64,000 bases of DNA from assembly GCF_003627755.1 (NCBI RefSeq), contig NZ_CP032697.1, positions 248,001-312,000 on the forward strand, given 5' to 3'. The stretch is from Rhizobium jaguaris (GTDB lineage: Bacteria > Pseudomonadota > Alphaproteobacteria > Rhizobiales > Rhizobiaceae). Shown one piece after another: positions 30,870-50,320 of the stretch (its first letter is position 1; every line of letters begins with the position of its first letter). Position numbers and translations under genes: made by a program. The notes under the pieces were generated by a model, which worked only from the letters and a program-made list of their open reading frames with translations, did no database searches and had not been told where the DNA came from.

Positions 30870-30948
30870 TTGCCCGACAATCTGCAACGTATGTCTTCAA
30901 CAACCTCCGAAACGGCACTTTTCAAGCCTCCTCAATGAAGTGATCACC

Positions 30949-31943
30949 ATGACCCGCTACATATTCGATTCCATTGAAGGCCACACCGCCGGCATGCCCG
31001 TGCGCCTGATAGTTCCGGGCAACCAGATCTTATCGGCGAAACGCAGAGCGAGCGAAGACTGGACTTCATCGCACGTCATGACTGGATTCGCAGCGGGCTG
31101 ATGTGCGAGCCCGAGGCCATGAAATGATGTCGGGCGCAATGCTGGTGCCCTCGACACGGGAGGATTGCGATACCGGCGTGCTCTATCTTGAAACGTCGGG
31201 CTGCCTGCCGATGTGCGGCCACGCCACGATCGGGCTCGTGACCTTCATCATTGAAAAGGGACTGATAGAACCGGCGACGCCGGGGCTCGTCCGGCTCGAC
31301 ACGCCGGCAGGTGTCGTCGAGGCCAAATACGAAAAGACCGGCGACAAGTCACCGGCGTTCGATTCAGCAACGTCGCCTCTTTCGTCTTTGCCGAAGGTGT
31401 CGAGTTGGACCATCCCGATCTCGGACCCATCGTCTTCGACATCGCCTATGGCGGAAATTTCTATCCCATCGTCGAGAGCCAGCCGAATTTCCGCGATTGT
31501 GCAGATTACACACTGAAGAGCTTCGGCGGATGGCGCAGGTTCTGGTCAAGCTGCTGCGAGCGTTATCGAGATCATCCATCCTGATAATCCAAGCATAAGA
31601 GGTGCACATCACACGAAAGTGGTGCGGCGCGCCAACCAACGGGGCCGACGCGCGTGCGGTCGTGATTGCCACACCCAAAATCATTGATCGCTCGCCCTGC
31701 GGCACCGGCACGTCCGCGCGCGTGGCACTCCGCGCCGCTCGCGGAGAGCAGCAGATCGGCGACGTCTTTACCCATGAAAGCCTGATAGGCTCGACATTCA
31801 AGGGACGGGTCGAGCGCCATGTAACGCTGAATGCCGGCATTCCCGCAGTTATTCCAAGCGTCGAAGGTTGTGCCTATATCACGGGTGCCTCGACTCATGT
31901 CATTGACGATTTGGAGCCATATGCGACGGGCTATCTTACCTGA
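30949..31943 (+). pseudogene. 4-hydroxyproline epimerase-like gene with several frameshifts
   Basis: Pieces in three frames join into a proline racemase superfamily protein of about 330 residues: YIFDSIEGHTAGMPVRLIV, then DFIARHDWIRSGLM, RGHEMMSGAMLVPSTREDC, ETSGCLPMCGHATIG (first catalytic Cys), DIAYGGNFYPIVES and IDRSPCGTGTSARVAL (second Cys). Frame changes are needed near 31026 (G lost), 31110 (C lost from a run), 31347 (G lost), about 31540-31560 and about 31613 (one A too many). No premature substitution-type stop is otherwise needed. With both Cys kept it is closer to true epimerases than the Ser/Cys copy at 16772. It lies between a DapA-like gene and a GntR, a normal setting for hydroxyproline breakdown. 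Confidence 0.75.
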
Positions 31944-32056
31944 TTGCAACAGCGTCTGCGCCCCGTTGAAAGCATATGCGAGATTCGGGGCGTGTGCAGT
32001 CGCTATTGAATCTCTGGCAAATCCCAGCCAGTTTGCGGCGCGAGAAAGGACCATTC

Positions 32057-32780
32057 ATGCGCCAAGAATATAAAACTGCGCCCAGCAGCGACAAGGAAAC
32101 GGGCAGCGCCCGCGTGTTCGCGCAACTGCGCAAAGACATTCTGCAAGTGATTTGGCGCCGGGATCGCCCCTGGACGAGATTCGCCTGAGCGAGCGTTTCA
32201 AGCTGTCCCGATCGCCGATCCGTGAAGCGCTTGTCCGTTTGTCCAGCGAGGGTTTGGTAAGCATCCTTCCCAACCGCAGCACGGTTGTCGCGCCGCTTAA
32301 TTTTGAAACCCTGCCAGAATTCCTAGAGGCGCTGGATCTCTATCAAAGGGCAACGACAAAATCGGCAGCGCTTTTGCGCACGGAACAGGATCTTGAAGAC
32401 ATCATCGAGGCCCAGGGCCGGTATGAGGAGCAGACACGCCTGAGCTTCGAGAGCGGCAGCTCCATTCCGATGATCGAGTCAAACTATGAGTTTCATATGA
32501 GAATCGCGCGCGCGGGCAAGAACCGCTATCTGGAGATTTCTATAGCCGCGTCCTCAACGAAGGCAGGCGCATGCTCCATTTCCATTTCGAGTTTCACAGA
32601 CTGGACCCCGAAATGAACGCCAACAAGCTTGGCGCGGATCATCATGAAATGATCGCGGCCATACGCACCCGAGATACGGAAGCGGCCGAACGCATCGCAC
32701 ACGACCATGCAATGCAGTTCAAGGGCCGTTTCATTCAGTTTCTCACAAATAATGTCCGTGACGCCCTTCGGTCAGCGTAG
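32057..32780 (+). pseudogene. GntR/FCD regulator with two single-base frameshifts
   Basis: Three frames join as one regulator of about 241 residues: ETGSARVFAQLRKDILQV, then LAPGSPLDEIRLSERFKL and SRSPIREALVRLSSEGLV, then FEFHRLDPEMNANKLGADHH to the stop at 32780. A T is missing at 32151-32153 (TTT for TTTT) and another at 32537-32539. The protein is a clear paralogue of the intact GntR at 7886. GAAAGGA lies before ATG 32057. It follows the epimerase-like gene and would be its local regulator if functional. Confidence 0.8.
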
Positions 32781-33548
32781 CTTCGTGCGACTGGGCATTT
32801 AGATCGAGTGATGAAAATTGCAGCTTCCTGACGCAGTCTTTGATGCGGACCGAGTAGCTCTTATTTTGCAATTGATGGGGTTCGAACTGCAAACCCGGAG
32901 ATGCTGACAGATCGGTGACCTCCGCCTCTCTCGAGGAAACCATATCTACCGACATCGCCAGTGAAGGTTGACGCCGACCATCCGCGGCGTGATGTGCCAT
33001 CTGATCTGGCTGAGAGGACACATCGTCAGAGCGCTCAAGACGAAACTCCGAGACGATCTCGCGCAGACGGCTGACCTCGGTCGGCAAAGCTGTGCGTGCA
33101 GGTGCGCGCGCGTCGGCATAGTTCGTCGGCCCCTCGAAGAGGCTGAGTCCGGAACACCGTTAAGCTGGCCGCAAGCCGTCTCGTCAGACGCTTCCAAACC
33201 GCCGGCAGGTTCTTCGCCTTGAACCAATTCGAACCATCGACCGCTCCACACCGAAATCGTGGAAAGACAATAACTTCAACGGCTGTGTGCATAAGTCACT
33301 ATTTCCCGACCGAAATCCTGATGTGTCAGATGCGGCCCTTAGCCGGCAACCGGACGCCGCACACTACCCATAAGGCTCAGCCAAATGGCGCTGTGTGGCA
33401 CCACGCAGCGTTCCGCTAAAATTGCATTAGTTACATGAGAAGCGTGCCCAAGTGCCCAAAAGTAGCAAATTTAATCGTGCAACATTCGGCGCCTGCCTTC
33501 CACCGAACGCCGAATTCGTGCACTCAGGTTGCAAAGAGGGGTCACACC
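32781..33548. other. region without a confident gene
   Basis: This 768-base stretch marks the change from the catabolic island to the mobile patchwork. A leftward frame at 32743-33087 (114 codons) reads somewhat protein-like, but I cannot place it in a family and it overlaps the end of the GntR pseudogene. No hairpin or repeat stands out. Composition becomes more AT-rich after about 33.2 kb. Confidence 0.4.
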
Positions 33549-33827
33549 ATGAGCACTGAAGAGCCTGACAAGTCCGAACCGGAAACGCCGAGCAGCCGGG
33601 TCTACGATCTATTCAGGGTGCTCCTTTCCTCTGTGCTCATCAGCCTGCTCCTAGCTGGTATAAGCACATCGGCGCTGAAGCTCTGGAATCGCCTTTATCC
33701 GGAGGACGTCGTGAAGGTCTGGCAGGTGTCAGAAGGGGACTACCAGCGAATCTCGACGGCCCTGAACAACTCGAATAGCAAGCTTATGCGCCTGAAGGAT
33801 TTGGTTGCCAACAATCGGAAGCGGTGA
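33549..33827 (+). CDS. small single-span membrane protein of unknown function
   Basis: A 92-residue protein: a charged N-terminus (MSTEEPDKSEPETPSSR), one membrane span (about residues 23-43, VLLSSVLISLLLAGISTSA) and a polar C-terminal part with QRISTALNNSNSKLMRLKDLV that may form a short coiled coil. GAGGGG sits before the ATG. The next gene on the same strand also encodes a small membrane protein, so the two may work together. They lie back-to-back with a degraded reverse transcriptase in an AT-richer patch. I do not recognise a family. Confidence 0.65.
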   Translation: MSTEEPDKSEPETPSSRVYDLFRVLLSSVLISLLLAGISTSALKLWNRLYPEDVVKVWQVSEGDYQRISTALNNSNSKLMRLKDLVANNRKR

Positions 33828-33909
33828 AGTTAGCAACGGCGATGCAGGAAGAGCTCAGGCTGCAAATGCGTCGATCGCGAATTCGCCATTCATCGAGCAG
33901 CGCGATACC

Positions 33910-34161
33910 ATGAGCGTCTCGTGGAATGTCATCTCCTCAGCCTACGCCAAAAGCGCGACCGGCGACACTGGCGGTCAATCCGACAACACGATCGTCTACA
34001 TTCTCTTAGCTTTGGTTGCCTTCGTGCTCGTTGCCTTCACCGGCATCTATGCCTTCTGTAAAGACAAGTCGCAGCGCGCATTCATCGAGAAGACCATCAC
34101 GACTATCGTTGGATTCGCGCTCGGGATGATAACCGGCTCAACTACCGCGCGGTTCAAGTAG
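33910..34161 (+). CDS. small two-span membrane protein of unknown function
   Basis: An 83-residue protein from ATG 33910 (MSVSWNVISS) with a strong span YILLALVAFVLVAFTGIYAF and a second weaker span IVGFALGMITGSTTA; a basic loop (CKDKSQRAFIEK) lies between. The frame is open upstream to a TTG at 33805, overlapping the previous gene, so the start is uncertain. It could be an effector or holin-like partner of the gene before it. The shape is reminiscent of small two-span proteins tied to phage-defence loci, but this is only an impression. Confidence 0.6.
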   Translation: MSVSWNVISSAYAKSATGDTGGQSDNTIVYILLALVAFVLVAFTGIYAFCKDKSQRAFIEKTITTIVGFALGMITGSTTARFK

Positions 34162-34237
34162 TCGATGGCGCAGAGGCTGCGGGGGCGACCGGCGCGGGCT
34201 TCGGGAGCGAACGGAAATATGCGGTGCGCCGCTTTTC

Positions 34238-35086
34238 TTATGACCAGTGGCACGTCTTCGACTCCACAATGTCGCAGTAGGTCTTGAACCCCTCCTCGCT
34301 GGCATCAGAGTGTTCCTCAGAGAAAAAATTCGTCAATGCGATCCTGCAAACCTCGGTTTTGCCGTTGGCCAGAATGCAATTGAAGATGTCGATCTGCGGT
34401 GCCGGGGGGGCGCGTCTTTCGTCGTTGAGGGTGAACCCTGCCTCAGCGACGGCGGCGATGAGACCCTCGAAGGCCGTCTGCAGGTCCGCCTCGCCGTTAC
34501 CCGAAAGGCATATGTCGTCCATATAGACGGATACCGTTATCGTCGCCGGTAGGCCGCGGAGGTAGATGCCTATCGCGGATTTCGCGAGAACGAGCGTCGC
34601 CAGGATGGGAGACTGGACGAATCCATACGGAAGCACATACCCTGCCCCGTAGGGATTTTTGACCGTGGACCACTTCGCATAAATATTCTGGCCGCTGGAC
34701 ATGGATGTCCTTCAGCGCGCGTTTAACGCGATTGCGCTGGATGCTGTAGAAGAATTTCGAAATGTCGATGCGGCAGAAAAACTGGTTGTTGCGGTGGCGA
34801 TGCAGCGCAAGAACGTGCGACCCGTCTTTGAAATGGTAGACAAAGCTGTCGAATTTGTAGGCCTTGTTCACCTTGCGCTTCAGTTCAGCGCCAAGTTTTT
34901 CCCCGAAGGGGTTAGGCGCATAACCGGCTTGCCGTTCTTTTTGTAAGAATAAAGGAAGTTTCGAACGCTAAGGGCATAGTTGACAACCTTGCTGTAGATA
35001 TCGAGCGCAATTGATGATCTCCAGGTGGAGTACAATATCGTCAAGACAGCTACAGCAAGGTCGAGATGCTTATGAATCTTCTTCAT
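34238..35086 (-). pseudogene. reverse transcriptase (not intron or retron type) with two frameshifts
   Basis: Three frames join into a reverse transcriptase of about 283 residues: MKKIHKHLDLAVAVL to NGKPV, then NPFGEKLGAELKRKVNKAYK and FDSFVYHFKDGSHVLA. RIDISKFFYSIQ (motif A Asp), LPYGFVQSPILATL (motif B) and VYMDDICLSG (YMDD, motif C) follow. GGAGG lies 8 bases before ATG 35086. The shifts are at 34922-34923 (one base lost from a run; restoring it gives PVYAPNPFGEK) and near 34690. The motif B wording and short size are unlike group II intron maturases or the intron protein at 42797. They are closer in style to the defence-associated RTs, though I cannot assign a class. Possible partners are the membrane proteins opposite. 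Confidence 0.78.
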
Positions 35087-35432
35087 CGGCAAATCCTCCA
35101 TTGCGAGACTTCAGCAAACTGCAACCCATGTTTAACCATGGATCGTCAACTGAGAGAACAATAGTATATTCCCGAAGCTCGTACATGAGGACAACCCGAA
35201 GGTCGAACTTTCCGTAGAGCCGTGAGCTACAGCCTATTGCTGAAATCGCCCTGGATATACGTTTGCCTTCAAAGAGTTGCAAGGGGCACAACCTCTGAAC
35301 GATAAGATTTTTGCTGGCGCTGGCGAGTTCGATCACCACCGAAGGCCGGACGTCGATCTCTATTCGGAGATATCCGCAGAGGTTGCAGAGAAGATCACGG
35401 CAAAATCGAGGTGGATGCCACTGGCTAAGCAT
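35070..35432 (-). CDS. unknown protein directly upstream of the reverse transcriptase
   Basis: A 120-residue frame whose end overlaps the RT start by 17 bases, as expected for coupled genes. The N-terminus (MLSQWHPPRFCRDLLC) is doubtful; an internal GTG near VVIELASASKNLIV could be the start. The middle contains KGRFDLR-like basic stretches and VVLMYELREYTIVLSVDDPW. It shares the lower GC of the RT. No family recognised. It may equally be an N-terminal domain or an unrelated reading frame. Confidence 0.4.
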   Translation of the reverse strand: MLSQWHPPRFCRDLLCNLCGYLRIEIDVRPSVVIELASASKNLIVQRLCPLQLFEGKRISRAISAIGCSSRLYGKFDLRVVLMYELREYTIVLSVDDPWLNMGCSLLKSRNGGFADEEDS

Positions 35433-35450
35433 CCGGCGTGCGGTCTCCGA

Positions 35451-37106
35451 TTAATTACCGCCCGCCATGAACCGTGTCTCCACGTCCGTATCGTCGCGAA
35501 CGATCATGCCGCCCTGGGCGGCGAGGGACAGGGCGGACAGCAGGCGGTCGGGCGTCGGCCCGAAGGGACCGCTCAACCTTTTGTGGATCCTGAGCCACCC
35601 GCTGTCGCCGAGCGCAAGCCGCAGGCGCTGCGTGCCATCACCGTTTCTCGCCACCGACCATCGGACATGCTGCCCGATCACCCAGGTCTCGATTAGTTCG
35701 CGCCAGAGGGTTTCGACCGTCGCTTCCGCCAGGGACAGGAGCCGCCTGTGCTGGAGCGATATCGGGAAGCGATCCGATCGCCCTCCCAGTTCGCCGAGCC
35801 TGCCATCGTCGGCACCTTCTCGCTTTAGCGCCGAATACATTGCCTGTACGTAGCCAAGAGCAGATAGGGCCAGACCTGGAATGGTCTCATAGCTGCCAGG
35901 ACCCCCGCGTTGCGCAACGGTCAGCTTTTCACTCAATGCGACCAGATCCGTGTCGCCCTTAGCGGCTGCGGCGGGCCAGCCGTGGGCCTTACAACGCTGC
36001 GACAGCGCAGTGAGCAGATCGCCGACGGTCGGGCCGGCCAAGTCCTTATCGAAATCCTCGGCTTGGCGCAGCGCCATTGCAACGAGCGCATCGGTCGATG
36101 CCGATCCGCCGTTGGTTTTGATCATCACCTCGATCCAGACGAGCATGCTTTCCAGCGCCAGGCGCTGCAACTGGCGCACCTGCAGGGAAGCCATTAACAG
36201 CCATGTCGCCTGCAGGCCGGTATCGTTCGAGCCGGTGCGAACCAGGGCGCGTCCGCCGGGTAACACGCCAGAAGCAAGCACGGCCCGTAGCTCCGGCACC
36301 GTCAGTCCGTCCGGTGTCGCTTCGATGGCTTCAAGGACAAGCGCCAGCGTGTCATTGCGCCTGGTAAAATCCGTCCTGCCCGTTTCCCGCCTCGGCTCGA
36401 ACAGCCTACGAAAGACCTCTCGTTCCTCGTTCGACGGCTCCGACGGAGGAAGATCGTCGTTCAGGCGCTGCACTTCCTCGGGGCGGAAGGTCCTTAAAGC
36501 GGGATCGACCATGTGCCGCATGGCAGACCTGGACACGATCGAATCGATCGCCCTGACGGCAGGCATGACCTGTTCGGTCGGCCGGAAAACGCCGATGACG
36601 GACGTCTGCTCGAGAAACCCGAGCGCTTTGATGGAGGGGCCGTACTGGATCGCGTCCATGATTGACGTGGAGGCCTGTCGCTTCTTCTTGACGGTTTCCC
36701 AATTCGCGCCCTTGAAGGTGAAGGGGCCTCCACCCTCCATCGGCATGCAGCTCCTCAACACCGCCATTCCAGGCAGGTCGCGTCCGCCGGCCAGCATGTG
36801 CGACCAGGCGTAGATGACCTCCAGGCGCATGACGAAATCCTTCGCCGCCGCGGAGTCGATATCCTTCATCCCGCCGTTCGACAGGAGGTCGTTGGTCTTC
36901 CACCAGGCCCAGGCCATGAAGGCGTAGGGACGGATGAACACGGTCGTGTTGTTGATCCCCGGGATCGCCCGATCCATCAGGTCCAGGTTGATCTGGCGCA
37001 GGCCAAGCGGATCCACGCCGCCGTCCTTCAGGGCAAGCCTGGTGACCAGCCGCGCGCCCGGCGCCGTCGCAAAATCGAGGTCGGTCTCCTGGAGCAGCTG
37101 GTTCAA
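35451..37106 (-). CDS. 551-residue protein of unknown function coupled to the PLD-like gene
   Basis: A GC-rich, soluble, mostly helical protein. Conserved-looking blocks are LGLRQINLDLMDRAIPGINN, TTVFIRPYAFMAWAWWKTND and, near the C-terminus, QHVRWSVARNGDGTQRLRLAL. The start is a TTG at 37106, directly after the TGA of the PLD-like gene and in the same frame. A GGAGG 8 bases before the TTG supports separate translation. I do not recognise the family with confidence. Pairing with a PLD-like protein points to a two-gene module, perhaps of defence or DNA-processing type. Confidence 0.75.
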   Translation of the reverse strand: MNQLLQETDLDFATAPGARLVTRLALKDGGVDPLGLRQINLDLMDRAIPGINNTTVFIRPYAFMAWAWWKTNDLLSNGGMKDIDSAAAKDFVMRLEVIYAWSHMLAGGRDLPGMAVLRSCMPMEGGGPFTFKGANWETVKKKRQASTSIMDAIQYGPSIKALGFLEQTSVIGVFRPTEQVMPAVRAIDSIVSRSAMRHMVDPALRTFRPEEVQRLNDDLPPSEPSNEEREVFRRLFEPRRETGRTDFTRRNDTLALVLEAIEATPDGLTVPELRAVLASGVLPGGRALVRTGSNDTGLQATWLLMASLQVRQLQRLALESMLVWIEVMIKTNGGSASTDALVAMALRQAEDFDKDLAGPTVGDLLTALSQRCKAHGWPAAAAKGDTDLVALSEKLTVAQRGGPGSYETIPGLALSALGYVQAMYSALKREGADDGRLGELGGRSDRFPISLQHRRLLSLAEATVETLWRELIETWVIGQHVRWSVARNGDGTQRLRLALGDSGWLRIHKRLSGPFGPTPDRLLSALSLAAQGGMIVRDDTDVETRFMAGGN

Positions 37107-38966
37107 TCAGGTTTCCTCCGGCTGGATGTCGACGATGATCGCGGTGCACTTCAGCCCCTGGCAGCTGGCGATCCCACCCCTGCGCAGGCGACCCGCTTCG
37201 ACCGCGGCAAGCTTCATGTGGCAGGATGGGCAATGCTTCCAGTCACTGCGAACGACGACTGTATCCCGCCGCCGGATGCCTTGGCCGATCCTGCCGAGGG
37301 CAGCGATCTCCTCGCCACTTGCGGCAGCCGAAAGATCGGGCATTGGCCCTTCCCCGTCAAGCGCGGCGATCAGGGCTCGATTGCGCTGCCATGATGTCGG
37401 CGCGGCAAGAGTCCCGGTGACGGCAAGCTTCCAGTCTCTGGCGCGGACGTCTGGCGCGAGCTGGCCTTCACGATGACCAGTTGGCGGCATTTCGAGAAGA
37501 TCGCGGTGATCTTTGGTCAATGCGCCTCGAAACCAGATCTCCAGCGCCTTGTGGATCTCGGCGCTCTTTTTCGGCTCGCGAAGGCCAGGAGCCACGGTCG
37601 CGACGGCATAGCATCGGTCGAGCGTGTCGAGGCCGGCCTGCGCTGGTCCGGCGCGCCTTGCAAGGTTTCGCCAGACCGGCAGGTGGGTCTTCAGGAACTG
37701 CTCGGGTTCCTCGACATTGTCGGCGCCGTAGAGAATGAAATCGAGCACCGACAGGATGTTTTCTCTTTTCGTCCGCCCGTCCGGAGACTCATCGATCTTG
37801 CGCATGAAAGAGCCGATCGCGCCGGCCAGCAGGTCCGCATTCGACCAGACACTCTCACCGCGTCCGTCATCGCCGCCGTCACCGGCATCACTCTCATGCC
37901 CGTGCCCCTGCCCCCGCCGCGGAGTATCCGTGATCCTCTGGCGGAAGCGCGCGATAAGTTTCTGGAACGCCGACTGACCCGTGCCTGACGCAGCGCGATC
38001 GTTTTCGGGCTTCAAGGCATCGCCAATCCCGAGCTCGCCCGCCGGGACCAGGTGCGAGGTTTCCTCCTTGTCGGCCTTGGGAGAATTGCTCCCGGACGCG
38101 ATCGGTTCGTCGCCCGCCAAGAAGGCCTCGGGATGCTTGGTGAAAAAGCCTGCAATGATATCGTTGTCGCGCGGGTTCTCGGCCCCACCGGCCGCACGCG
38201 CCATGGCTTCGGCAATTGCGCCGCGCTCGCGGACTGCTGCAATGATGTCCGTCATCACCAGCCAGCCGCGAACGGTCTCTTCGCCGCGCGCCAGCACCAG
38301 CTGCAAGGACGAGACGGCCGCATCGACCCTCCGGCGCTCGATCATGAATCGTCCGTCAACCGCGAGTTCGACCGTCCCGATCGACTCGAACCGACCGGGA
38401 GCATAAAGCGAGGCATTCCAGCATCCTTCCGGATCGACGACGTCGAGGACGCGGCCGTTGACCCCGCCGCCATCCAGACGCGCGATCAGGCATGGACACG
38501 CGGTATGGTGCGGCTCCTGCCCACCTTCCCCGACGAGGCCCTTGGGATAACCCGCTCGGCTCCAGCCGAGCCATGGCGCACCGTCTGATACGCGTGCGAC
38601 GACCACTTCGACGCTGCCAAGCCCCAGTCCGTTGACCGTCGCGTTGGCGCTCCCGGCTATCGTCAGGCGCCCTCTGGCGCATTCGATATCGAAGGCCTTG
38701 GCGTGCAACAGCTTCTCGCCCGAAAACAGCTGGTTGGTGACGGGCTGCGCCGCCAGGCCGAGGGTCTTGGCCGTATCGAAGTCGAACCAGAACGGCACTT
38801 TCGGCGGAACGAACACATTGACCGTCTTGCAGCCGAGGTCTCGCGCGAGATCGACAACCGCTTTCGGGCCGCCGAAATAAGGTGACAGAACGGTCAGCGC
38901 CTTCGCGCCACCGAGCTCCGTTGCCATCTCGACGATCTGTGGTGCGAGCGCCCGGTTGTACTCGAC
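37107..38966 (-). CDS. phospholipase D-like protein with C-terminal zinc motif, 5' end lost at a Tn3 junction
   Basis: About 619 residues remain. One HKD-type PLD half-site is visible: LLHAKAFDIECARGRLTIAG then SANAT (H-x-K and G-S-x-N). The C-terminus has paired cysteines, HCPSCHMKL and SCQGLKC, which look like a zinc ribbon. Coding sequence stays open upstream of the first ATG (38927) as VEYNRALAPQIVEMATELGG until a TAG at 38967-38969. There the Tn3-family transposase sequence begins on the other strand, so the native N-terminus has been cut off. PLD-like proteins of this kind serve as nucleases in restriction and defence modules; that role is inferred. The following gene is translationally coupled. 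Confidence 0.78.
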   Translation of the reverse strand, partial: VEYNRALAPQIVEMATELGGAKALTVLSPYFGGPKAVVDLARDLGCKTVNVFVPPKVPFWFDFDTAKTLGLAAQPVTNQLFSGEKLLHAKAFDIECARGRLTIAGSANATVNGLGLGSVEVVVARVSDGAPWLGWSRAGYPKGLVGEGGQEPHHTACPCLIARLDGGGVNGRVLDVVDPEGCWNASLYAPGRFESIGTVELAVDGRFMIERRRVDAAVSSLQLVLARGEETVRGWLVMTDIIAAVRERGAIAEAMARAAGGAENPRDNDIIAGFFTKHPEAFLAGDEPIASGSNSPKADKEETSHLVPAGELGIGDALKPENDRAASGTGQSAFQKLIARFRQRITDTPRRGQGHGHESDAGDGGDDGRGESVWSNADLLAGAIGSFMRKIDESPDGRTKRENILSVLDFILYGADNVEEPEQFLKTHLPVWRNLARRAGPAQAGLDTLDRCYAVATVAPGLREPKKSAEIHKALEIWFRGALTKDHRDLLEMPPTGHREGQLAPDVRARDWKLAVTGTLAAPTSWQRNRALIAALDGEGPMPDLSAAASGEEIAALGRIGQGIRRRDTVVVRSDWKHCPSCHMKLAAVEAGRLRRGGIASCQGLKCTAIIVDIQPEET

Positions 38967-42712: not shown

Positions 42713-42796
42713 CACCTATGCCTCAGCGTACTCAAGAGCAAAAGGTGCGGGGGAATTCGCGCTTAGTGCGGCTGCAAAGCCGATGGAAGATAGTTG

Positions 42797-44620
42797 ATGA
42801 AAGTTCAATACAGAGAAGAAGTGGCGAATCACTCTGACCCCGAGTCATGCGGCGCACATCGCGAGGTGTGCGTCGAAGCGTTGACAGGGGAAACCGGCAG
42901 GCCGGCCATTGAGCCGCGAAATGATCAATTCGGGATGCCGACGCTGTTAAGCGAAGCGGAAGGCAACACGGTGCATGGCGTCAATCGCAAGCCATGCCCC
43001 GATCCCGCGCGGTCGAAGACCCTGTGCATGCCGGGAAGTCTTTCATACGGAAGCAGCGAGATCTCATCAGTGTCCAGTGCAAATGGACTGGACGGGACTG
43101 GGAAGGTCGTTGACCACAATCCAGCCATCTACGCTGATGAGAAGTCGGATACAGCCATAGTACCGCGGAAGTTGCCGAACAAGGGAGATGATCTTGCGGA
43201 GGTAATGGAGGGAAGGGGTGTAATCGGAGGGAACGTCTTCGAAACCCCAGCGTGCCGGACACAGAGCCGGATCAAACACGCTTCGATGGGTGTCGAAGGT
43301 GTACGGGAAGCCGCCAGACGGGACCCGAAGTTGCGTTTCACGGCGCTGATGCACCACATCACTCCGACGCTATTGGTGGAGAGCTTCCATGCGCTTCGCA
43401 AGCAGGCGGCGAGCGGTGTGGACGGCGTGACGTGGTACGACTATGAGAAGACGCTCGAAGGGCGCGTGCACGAATTACATCGGGAAATTCAGTCCGGTGC
43501 TTATCGCGCACAACCGTCCCGACGGATCTACATTCCGAAGAATGACGGAAGACTCCGTCCACTCGGCATTGCAGCGTTGGAAGAAAAGGTCGTGCAGATG
43601 GCCGTGTCCACGGTTCTGAGCGCGATCTACGAACAAGACTTCCTCGGCTTCTCATACGGGTTCCGGCAAGGAAGGGGCCAGCATGACGCGCTGGACGCCT
43701 TGTGGTTTGGTATCGACAAGCGGAAGATCAACTGGATACTGGACGCGGATATTCGCTCGTTCTTCGATGAAATCGATCACGAGTGGATGCTCCGTTTTCT
43801 GTCACATCGAGTAGGTGACCGCCGTCTGATACGTCTGATCCACAAATGGCTGAAAGCGGGCACGATTGAGGATGGCCGCCGCGTAGCATCAGCGCGAGGA
43901 ACTCCTCAAGGCTCTGTAATTAGCCCCGTGCTATCGAATATCTACCTGCATTACGCATTGGATTTATGGGTCCAGCAATGGCGTACTCGAAATGCTAAAG
44001 GCGACGTGATCATTGTACGTTATGCCGACGACAGCGTGATTGGGTTCCAGTACGAAGGAGAGGCGCAGCGCTTCCTGCAAGAACTGCGGGAGCGCTTCGC
44101 CCAGTTTGGCTTGCAACTGCACCCGGAAAAGACGCGGCTGATACGCTTTGGGCGGTATGCTGTGCAACAATGCCGGGAACGTGGTATCCGCAAGCCAGAG
44201 ACCTTCGACTTTCTGGGATTCACGCATTGCTGCGGCAGGCGTCGCAATGATGGAGGCTTCAAGATTGTCCGTCTGACGATCAAGAAGCGAATGCGCACGA
44301 CGCTGGCGGCCGTTCGAGAAACGCTAATGCGACGACGCCATGAACCGGTGGCAGTAGTAGGTCGGTGGCTACGGCAAGTGTTACAGGGGTACTTGAACTA
44401 CCATGCGGTGCCAGACAATCTAAGAAGATTGGGAGGGTTCCGCTGGGAAGTTGGTCGAGCCTGGCGACACGCATTGATGCGTCGAAGCCAGCGACACCGC
44501 ATGCCTTGGGATCGTTTCCAAAGGCTGCTTCGCAAATACCTGCCACCGTGCCGCCTGATGCATCCGCATCCAGATGCTCGGCTTACCGTTACAACATCCG
44601 ATAGGAGCCGTATGCGGTAG
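42797..44620 (+). CDS. ltrA: group II intron reverse transcriptase/maturase
   Basis: A 607-codon frame. RT blocks are complete: SGVDGVTWYDYEKTLEGRV, RRIYIPKNDGRLRPLGIAAL, SYGFRQGRGQHDAL, WILDADIRSFFDEIDH (motif A), RGTPQGSVISPVLSNIYLHY (motif B), VRYADDSVIGFQ (motif C, YADD) and PEKTRLIRFGR. A maturase X-like region with TFDFLGFTH and LNYHAVPDN follows. The first 150 codons, before GVREAARRDPKL, overlap intron RNA structure and are often included in annotations; the true start may lie near 43.2 kb. No frameshift is seen, so the intron may still be mobile. Confidence 0.93.
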   Translation: MKVQYREEVANHSDPESCGAHREVCVEALTGETGRPAIEPRNDQFGMPTLLSEAEGNTVHGVNRKPCPDPARSKTLCMPGSLSYGSSEISSVSSANGLDGTGKVVDHNPAIYADEKSDTAIVPRKLPNKGDDLAEVMEGRGVIGGNVFETPACRTQSRIKHASMGVEGVREAARRDPKLRFTALMHHITPTLLVESFHALRKQAASGVDGVTWYDYEKTLEGRVHELHREIQSGAYRAQPSRRIYIPKNDGRLRPLGIAALEEKVVQMAVSTVLSAIYEQDFLGFSYGFRQGRGQHDALDALWFGIDKRKINWILDADIRSFFDEIDHEWMLRFLSHRVGDRRLIRLIHKWLKAGTIEDGRRVASARGTPQGSVISPVLSNIYLHYALDLWVQQWRTRNAKGDVIIVRYADDSVIGFQYEGEAQRFLQELRERFAQFGLQLHPEKTRLIRFGRYAVQQCRERGIRKPETFDFLGFTHCCGRRRNDGGFKIVRLTIKKRMRTTLAAVRETLMRRRHEPVAVVGRWLRQVLQGYLNYHAVPDNLRRLGGFRWEVGRAWRHALMRRSQRHRMPWDRFQRLLRKYLPPCRLMHPHPDARLTVTTSDRSRMR

Positions 44621-44638
44621 TACCGCACGTACGGATCT
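44605..44638 (+). ncRNA. group II intron domain V
   Basis: GAGCCGTATGCGG, then TAGTA, then CCGCACGTACGGATCT folds into the 34-nucleotide domain V hairpin, with the catalytic AGC triad at the 5' strand and a two-part stem. It overlaps the last bases of the intron gene. Confidence 0.85.
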
Positions 44639-44800
44639 GGCCGGGGGGCGATGGGCAACCATCGTCCCTACCGGGACCGTTGATCCCCAGGTCCCCGAGA
44701 GACTTCCCTCGCACTGAATTCCCAGCGACAGAAATCGAACCTCAGTGGTCTTGAAAAGCTTCTTTCCCCGGGGCAGGCTGGGCGATGAGGATGCGCCACC

Positions 44801-50069: not shown

Positions 50070-50320
50070 TGTGGCACCTTTCAGAACTGATGGCCCCGCT
50101 GAAGAAACAGATTCGCGCCGTATTGTCACGGACTACGAGATGCTCATTCGCCTCCGCTCTGAAACAGAAAAAGTGCGGCGCGGGAGGAGGTGCGCCGGGC
50201 TTTCCATGCTGATAGACAACTCGGAGGAGCAGCGCTGCCAACCCCACGCAACAGCTCGGGAGAATGAAAGCTGTTCCGATAATACCGGGGACATAGTGTT
50301 GCAGTGGATTTCTTGCGCAG

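Follow-up and report, generated by a model that had tools for sequence, protein, structure and literature searches.

With moderate confidence, we interpret the locus at positions 33549-35432 of a 64,000-nt stretch of Rhizobium jaguaris NZ_CP032697.1 (the whole of which we call the window) as a decayed copy of a previously undescribed, retron-like module of three parts, probably anti-phage, with a mini-protein as its effector. The three parts are a structured non-coding RNA, a small hydrophobic open reading frame (the mini-ORF) and a compact reverse transcriptase (RT). Comparison of relatives shows both their conserved order and the helices that run through them: across 48 relative loci the core order of RNA, mini-ORF and RT is constant, the mini-ORF being found in 47. 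The anti-phage role and the toxicity of the mini-protein we infer. A preliminary description of this DNA had pointed to phage defence, and a defence-type role of the module is plausible.

The locus and its relatives

Positions 33300-35500 match eight of 72,556 plasmid records by blastn, and two plasmids match at 84.7% identity over 99% and 85.9% over 93%; the two loci are those of Rhizobium gallicum (L049) and Agrobacterium salinitolerans (L048). Identities of this order on two plasmids indicate that the patch is more than chance. The preliminary description had called the patch AT-richer, which is true with respect to its right side, where the GC fraction is 0.61-0.66 (35.25-38.75 kb) against 0.47-0.58 at 33.5-35.5 kb, whereas the left side (30.5-33.5 kb) is intermediate at 0.53-0.60.

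As had been described, the RT lies in frameshifted minus-strand pieces (open frames 34880-35101, 34497-34871 and 34238-34702), which together contain the motifs RIDISKFF, SPILATL and YMDD. Matches to RVT_1 of Pfam cover 34497-34871 at E 1.9e-4, below the Pfam cut-off score, and 34238-34702 at E 1.2e-9. In L048 the RT is one gene of 277 aa and the gene facing it encodes a single 204-aa protein with two transmembrane (TM) segments. Since these intact counterparts span the window pieces, both the RT and the two-TM gene are interrupted in the window. The two small membrane proteins reported earlier are therefore one frameshifted gene, the 204-aa relative aligning across both frames at 80-86% identity. 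The small upstream frame proposed as a partner overlapping the RT start (35070-35432) consists mostly of structured RNA (35105-35248), whereas a true overlapping partner does exist in the form of the small ORF from 35086. As a gene, the 120-aa frame at 35070-35432 was rejected: it had no family match in Pfam, PADLOC or PHROGs, and the region is RNA instead. The RT was analysed through its unrepaired pieces in the window and through relatives with intact genes. Coordinates are collected in Table 1.

Shifted frames also occur directly to the left of the locus (30.9-32.8 kb, read from the list of ORFs), where the open frames at 30940-32780 read to us as an enzyme of racemase type and a regulator of GntR type, each broken into shifted pieces. 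Genome-wide frameshift error was rejected as the cause, the coverage by ORFs of at least 250 aa being 0.53-0.85 in 15 sampled stretches of the genome. By quarter of the window this coverage is 0.82 and 0.74 in the first and second, and lower, at 0.54 and 0.41, in the third and fourth. With shifted frames adjoining on the left and ordinary long-ORF coverage in the sampled stretches, the locus looks locally decayed, although an assembly error confined to the patch may be the cause of the frame shifts. Further interrupted copies of the RT family are present in Aquamicrobium and Gluconobacter (L018/L043 and L042), so that loss has occurred repeatedly.

Table 1. Features of the locus, in window coordinates, with the basis of each assignment
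Feature	Position	Strand	Basis
Two-TM protein gene, frameshifted, intact at ~204 aa in relatives, convergent to RT	33549-34161	+	tblastn of L048 protein over both pieces
RT gene, frameshifted (decayed)	34205 (~)-34977	-	Pfam, alignment; start inferred from aligned relatives
Small hydrophobic ORF, part upstream of RT start	34978-35086	-	Comparison with relatives
Structured non-coding RNA core	35105-35248	-	Covariance model R1: 102.9 bits, E 2.9e-24
P1 5' arm (retron a1-like), followed by AAUAGG	35239-35247	-	Helix counts
P1 3' arm (retron a2-like)	35107-35115	-	Helix counts
P4 5' arm, within small ORF	35050-35061	-	Helix counts
P4 3' arm, within small ORF, including AAGG upstream of RT start	34986-34997	-	Helix counts
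P5 5' strand, in non-coding RNA, complementary to bases directly before RT start	35143-35151	-	Helix counts; position by eye
P5 3' strand, directly upstream of RT start codon	34978-34987	-	Helix counts
Predicted -10 box	35254-35259	-	Pattern in 26/31 relatives vs 5.2% of shuffles; position by eye
Predicted -35 box	35277-35282	-	Promoter pattern; position by eye

The reverse transcriptase family

The complete RT relatives used are about 240-300 aa long, and the family consensus carries the motifs RVDIxRFFYS, PYGFVQSPILATL and YMDD. No match exceeded a curated NCBIfam cut-off, which bears out the preliminary view that the combination fits no named system. Three members scored 39-56 bits against the retron St85 RT of NCBIfam (cut-off 235), 19-25 bits against Drt3a and 15-21 bits against the group II maturase-RT (group_II_RT_mat). 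Of six members compared with PADLOC, two had RT_I-B as their top model (up to 72 bits), one had RT_II-A and three had a CRISPR-associated RT (48-57 bits); these top models score 48-72 bits, as compared with 21 and 31 bits for Drt3a, the best UG/DRT matches among the best 25 families per protein. In a profile search of PDB sequences, retron RTs took ranks 1-8 of 51, Eco8 and Ec86 being nearest. An AlphaFold2 model of the RT of a Rhizobium relative (pLDDT 92.8, pTM 0.82) gave a similar picture by Foldseek, with retron RTs at ranks 1-9 and DRT9 at rank 10.

A tree was built from 45 sequences, 30 of them family members and 15 others; the window RT is absent from it, and L097, L103, L105, L107 and L108 were left out. 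The family is monophyletic (UFBoot 100). It lies outside a clade (96) of four retron references and two unnamed RTs, in a small reference set with long branches, and apart from two other clades, one of group II RTs joined by two more unnamed RTs (97) and one of Drt3a with a single unnamed RT (99). A group II origin, which the preliminary description had already set aside, was rejected on the grounds of 15-21 bits against a cut-off of 300, this separate clade and the position of the only group II RNA of the window, at 42.8-44.7 kb. Membership of a DRT class was likewise rejected, given weak UG profile scores in PADLOC and the separation from Drt3a in the tree. A 440-aa RT-like protein elsewhere in the same genome (L007, C1:2745027-2748515) groups loosely with the Drt3a references (support 71).

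Two motifs, VTG at the start of region Y and NAXXH in region X, are absent from the family consensus, which has IDIFN in place of the former and ALHxH, its last H invariant, at the latter. Both are given as retron RT motifs in PMC6868368 and PMC4244168. In the retron-like set of PMC4244168, VTG is reported for 47% of the sequences and NAXXH for 59%, so that kinship with retrons is compatible with their absence. We call the family retron-like rather than retron because it lacks VTG and NAXXH and falls outside the clade of four retron references, in what is a small set with long branches. The earlier phrase 'not obviously retron type' calls for revision: the nearest RTs by PDB profile, NCBIfam score and fold are those of retrons and the anatomy of the RNA is retron-like. 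In the open-access literature searched, PMC8934634, PMC12632851 and PMC12548924 included, we found no description of the family.

A structured RNA upstream of the RT

The relatives share a conserved block upstream of the RT. RNAalifold on 26 sequences gave 22 pairs, 11 of them changed on both sides, and a covariance model (R1) built from those 26 loci, with the window excluded from training, recovered the window RNA at the score given in Table 1. The conserved non-coding RNA beside the RT, named beforehand as a check, was thus found. Strong R1 matches (69.6-118.9 bits) were obtained in 36 of the 43 sources searched, 26 of them training loci and the rest mostly duplicates or close kin; L017, L027, L041 and L044-L047 gave no strong match. 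The window RNA is the single match in its own genome. Four of 397 genomes of the order have an R1 match, and in the three others (L069-L071) the RT start adjoins the RNA. At gathering thresholds Rfam returned no match for the RNA in the window or five relatives, and at E <= 10 nothing meaningful on 401 bases of one relative.

Pairing was counted in alignments from which near-duplicate loci were omitted. Over 31 alphaproteobacterial sequences, 93.1%, 95.7% and 90.6% of cells were paired in P1, P3 and P4, respectively, and 92.9% in the three together, compared with 32-47% for slid versions. Changes on both sides occurred in 15 of the 30 pairs against a shuffle mean of 12.0, a value reached by 3 of 500 shuffles. 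For P1 the alignment-based count was preferred to a motif-plus-stem script, which misplaced the helix in alphaproteobacterial L031, L039, L042, L029, L052, L071 and L092 and placed none in L036.

P5 joins the RNA to the start of the RT gene, and in the same 31 sequences 97.4% of its cells were paired, compared with 6-44% when slid. Independent compensations are few here: two of five measures were no better than shuffles, since 68 of 500 shuffles equalled the number of pairs changed on both sides and 423 of 500 equalled that of further pair types, and five sequences have possibly one common compensatory event. A divergent set of 14 sequences, mostly gammaproteobacterial, viral-contig and plasmid, was also counted for P4 and P5 (14 of 17 loci; L044, L017 and L072 omitted; alignment A7). 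In this set the letters of P5 differ and its register is kept, with 92.0% of cells paired against 22-52% slid and five of eight pairs compensated; the corresponding values for P4 were 86.5% against 34-52%, with seven of nine pairs compensated. These compensatory changes, seen at the level of sequence, support a P4 stem inside the mini-ORF and a long-range P5 pairing to the RT start. Because P3 and P5 have bases in common they are mutually exclusive, and for the same reason the RNA could alternate between a fold that engages the RT start and one that does not (alignment A6).

The ends of the RNA resemble those of retrons, in that self-complementary RNA ends upstream of the RT, as in the retron msr-msd, are present as P1, with the mini-ORF intervening before the RT. 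At the place where retrons have the priming-guanosine AGC, after the 5' arm, the sequence is UAG in 22 of the 31 alphaproteobacterial sequences and UAAG in two, followed by G or C; the exceptions include UAAC, UAUC and UGAC, and this lack of universality counts against the retron-like reading. The P1 arm and following motif were placed in all 17 divergent loci, with scores that no more than 10 of 200 shuffles equalled in any locus, the presence of a UAG-type motif there being partly by design since the P1 script searches for it.

Upstream of P1, the pattern TTG-N19-22-TA occurs in 26 of the 31 alphaproteobacterial sequences, as against 5.2% of shuffles, and its end is separated from the P1 5' arm by 5-10 nt, most commonly 7; it is the looser of two patterns and was selected after inspecting the sequences, six of 31 of which had fitted a stricter sigma70-type promoter pattern (against 6.2% of shuffles). 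Since the promoter pattern ends just upstream of P1, the RNA probably starts at P1. Retron RNAs start with a1.

The mini-ORF between the RNA and the RT

A script that required openness, with hydropathy not a criterion, located a frame with an ATG and a ribosome-site-like word between RNA and RT in 47 of 48 loci; in the single miss, L091, an ATG frame is readable by eye. Most of these frames extend beyond the RT start in another frame, and 36-38 codons precede that start in 29 of 30 loci. Predicted lengths are mostly 41-75 aa, three reaching 91, 104 and 110. In its own frame the product is hydrophobic (19-residue mean Kyte-Doolittle value of at least 1.6) in 39 of 47 loci, compared with five and none of the 47 in the other frames. 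For two close subgroups, the 16 pairs that join one to the other have dN/dS ratios of 0.23-0.42, and six pairs inside one of the two have 0.34-1.01; over 135 pairs of a wider set the median is 0.607. The E. coli mini-ORF is annotated by NCBI as a 57-aa CDS (WP_000380485.1), whereas the plasmid annotations examined omit this near-universal mini-protein. Taken across loci, these comparisons show the mini-ORF to be coding. In the window the frame from 35086 is open, with its middle altered relative to relatives, and lies within the listed frame 34880-35101. The all-pair median of 0.607 and the one close pair at 1.01 tell against the effector reading, and the mini-protein could be a cofactor or leader peptide instead.

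Two other roles for the mini-ORF were weighed. It could be a leader peptide, P4 hiding the ribosome site of the RT and translation of the leader exposing it, and the product of the module would then be RT, RNA and cDNA alone. We think this unlikely: although the AAGG upstream of the RT start does fall within the P4 3' arm and the ORF overlaps the RT start, the hydrophobic stretch is kept in 39 of 47 loci, there is purifying selection between the close subgroups, and the distance from P5 downstream to the RT start is greater in the divergent group, by as much as about 20 nt, so that hiding of a ribosome site cannot explain everything. The mini-protein could instead have a structural role, as a subunit by which the RT is anchored or activated, with no toxin involved, as might suit a frame that in the loci examined always adjoins and overlaps the RT start. 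This too seems improbable, as the RT is predicted to be compact and is modelled confidently alone (pLDDT 92.8), and the hydropathy of the peptide, weak evidence in itself, resembles that of a membrane segment. A membrane-acting effector is the role that we favour for the mini-protein.

The two-TM gene

The convergent two-TM gene is an accessory of one rhizobial branch. It was found at that position in nine of 35 loci, two of the nine on one contig and a few other contigs ending soon after the RT, which makes absences there unsure; its stop always lies 7 nt inside the RT 3' end. L027 has a weak partial match, and a search with the protein gave nine sequences, one of them of the same length as the window's own 118-aa piece. 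As a universal partner the protein was rejected, being present in only nine of 35 loci. The co-occurrence with the RT that was to be checked thus applies to a subgroup of RT loci, whereas in the other direction all three plasmid records with the two-TM gene also have the RT. Its structure model is poor (pLDDT 56.7). Rhizobium sp. R634 (L020, L021) has the entire module twice on one contig, each time with the RNA and the two-TM gene.

Retrons of the Ec48 type have a two-TM effector, and by analogy with such retrons the two-TM protein could be the effector here and the mini-ORF regulatory; despite the fixed 7-nt convergent overlap in its nine loci and plasmids that never have it without the RT (three of three), we regard this as very improbable, since 26 of 35 loci showed no such gene in that position (a few contigs ending soon after the RT) and it is absent from the E. 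coli slot.

Distribution and genomic neighbourhood

On the evidence of homology searches, the RT family is rare but widespread. Within the taxonomic family the RT piece matches nine of 394 genomes, own included, and 28 loci among GTDB species genomes; the RT alignment matches two of 385 genomes of the class, again own included, and 15 viral-contig loci in IMG/VR, nine of them strongly (E <= 5e-31). Among plasmid and phage records, RT matches number eight of 72,556 and 14 of 50,697, the latter comprising 13 Klebsiella and one annotated type I-B retron. A protein search returned 533 sequences at E <= 0.001, among which those beyond the best 120 may include other RT classes.

In E. coli, 34 of 5,426 genomes match, all chromosomally; the match spans at least 80% of the query in 32 of them, and in 29 the identity is no less than 99%. 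The two copies examined lie between ogr and the tmRNA gene, where a P2-like prophage ends; one slot additionally contains an IS421 transposase. In the other, that of strain C2, there are RNA, mini-ORF and RT, and the sole other frame of at least 50 aa is on the opposite strand, largely within the RT. As these prophages carry an intact copy of about 1.3 kb, priming, template and effector are directly testable in laboratory strains.

Other relatives adjoin an EruA-like NACHT gene (817 bits, below the cut-off of 1000) and AbiEii, an Abi family gene, and S8 peptidase/ATPase pairs. From 149 ORFs of 14 loci, 78 neighbour proteins (12 loci) were sampled; among their best 25 families they match Lamassu, Gabija, UG20, type IIG, PD-Lambda-1 and Mza, the matches not being assigned to loci. 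In an own-genome control 78 of 80 proteins also match models among their best 25 families (for example IetS, mad, Cas1 and PDC-S24), and over this control the systematic scan gave no clear enrichment of defence genes around the loci.

Beside the RT in the window, positions 35451-38927 hold two adjacent genes of 551 and 606 aa that match no family in NCBIfam or, at cut-off, in Pfam. R. gallicum (L049) has a pair 91% identical to them next to its RT, genes of partial similarity (27% and 37%) occur in S. glycinis (L023), and the 606-aa protein has a weak PADLOC match to ZacB (E 3.5e-4). The two are possibly a separate defence pair.

Comparison with known systems

The closest likeness is to retrons, above all those of type I-B (Eco8) and of the Ec86 type: they supply the nearest RTs by PDB profile and fold, the St85 family of NCBIfam scores 39-56 bits and RT_I-B of PADLOC up to 72 bits, and there is an RNA upstream of the RT with a closing stem at its predicted 5' end and, in most alphaproteobacterial sequences, UAG(G/C) after the 5' arm, as well as carriage on prophages and plasmids. 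The family differs from retrons in that its RT forms a clade of its own and is without VTG and NAXXH, a hydrophobic mini-ORF containing a conserved stem stands between RNA and RT, the RNA pairs with the RT start, and the E. coli slot is without a large effector gene.

Other systems are further removed. The DRT/UG systems (DRT3a, DRT9, DRT2) also combine an RT with an associated RNA, and DRT9 appears at Foldseek rank 10, but UG scores are weak, the family RT has about 240-300 aa and it is separate from Drt3a in the tree. A CRISPR-associated RT is the top PADLOC model for three of six members at 48-57 bits, yet this model has 161 positions and covers just an RT domain; no cas gene is listed in the annotated neighbourhoods examined on plasmids. 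With type I toxin-antitoxin systems the module has in common a small hydrophobic protein whose message is bound up in RNA structure, and it differs in having an RT and an RNA folded in cis.

Proposed mechanism

As we picture it, a single promoter would give one transcript carrying the structured RNA, then the mini-ORF, then the compact RT. The 5' domain of the RNA would be closed by the long stem P1, like a1/a2 of retrons, with the UAG(G/C) motif following, and P4 and P5 would couple RNA folding to translation of both mini-protein and RT. The RT may copy part of the RNA, and a complex of RNA, cDNA and RT would restrain the mini-protein until phage attack frees it; the freed mini-protein would then damage the membrane and so halt infection. 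One rhizobial subgroup may add the convergent two-TM protein as a second membrane component.

A bolder version, which we put forward tentatively and give somewhat less than an even chance, is that the module represents a new class of retron-like systems in which the effector, a very small membrane peptide, is encoded within the RNA fold of the RT itself. The mini-ORF holds P4 and is flanked by the two strands of P5, and copying or folding of the RNA would here set the output of both toxin and RT, the RT acting as an RNA-level antitoxin to its own message. A single region serving both as membrane peptide and as covarying RNA stem would, if true, be a rare regulatory design. The compact RT lineage was left unnamed by the libraries searched (Pfam, NCBIfam and PADLOC), and its RNA is without an Rfam match.

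Other features of the window

A group II intron occupies positions 42794-44677, with an RT (608-aa frame) and matching RNA ends; a near-identical RT is present in a genome of the same genus. An ar14 small RNA match lies at 50166-50284 on the minus strand.
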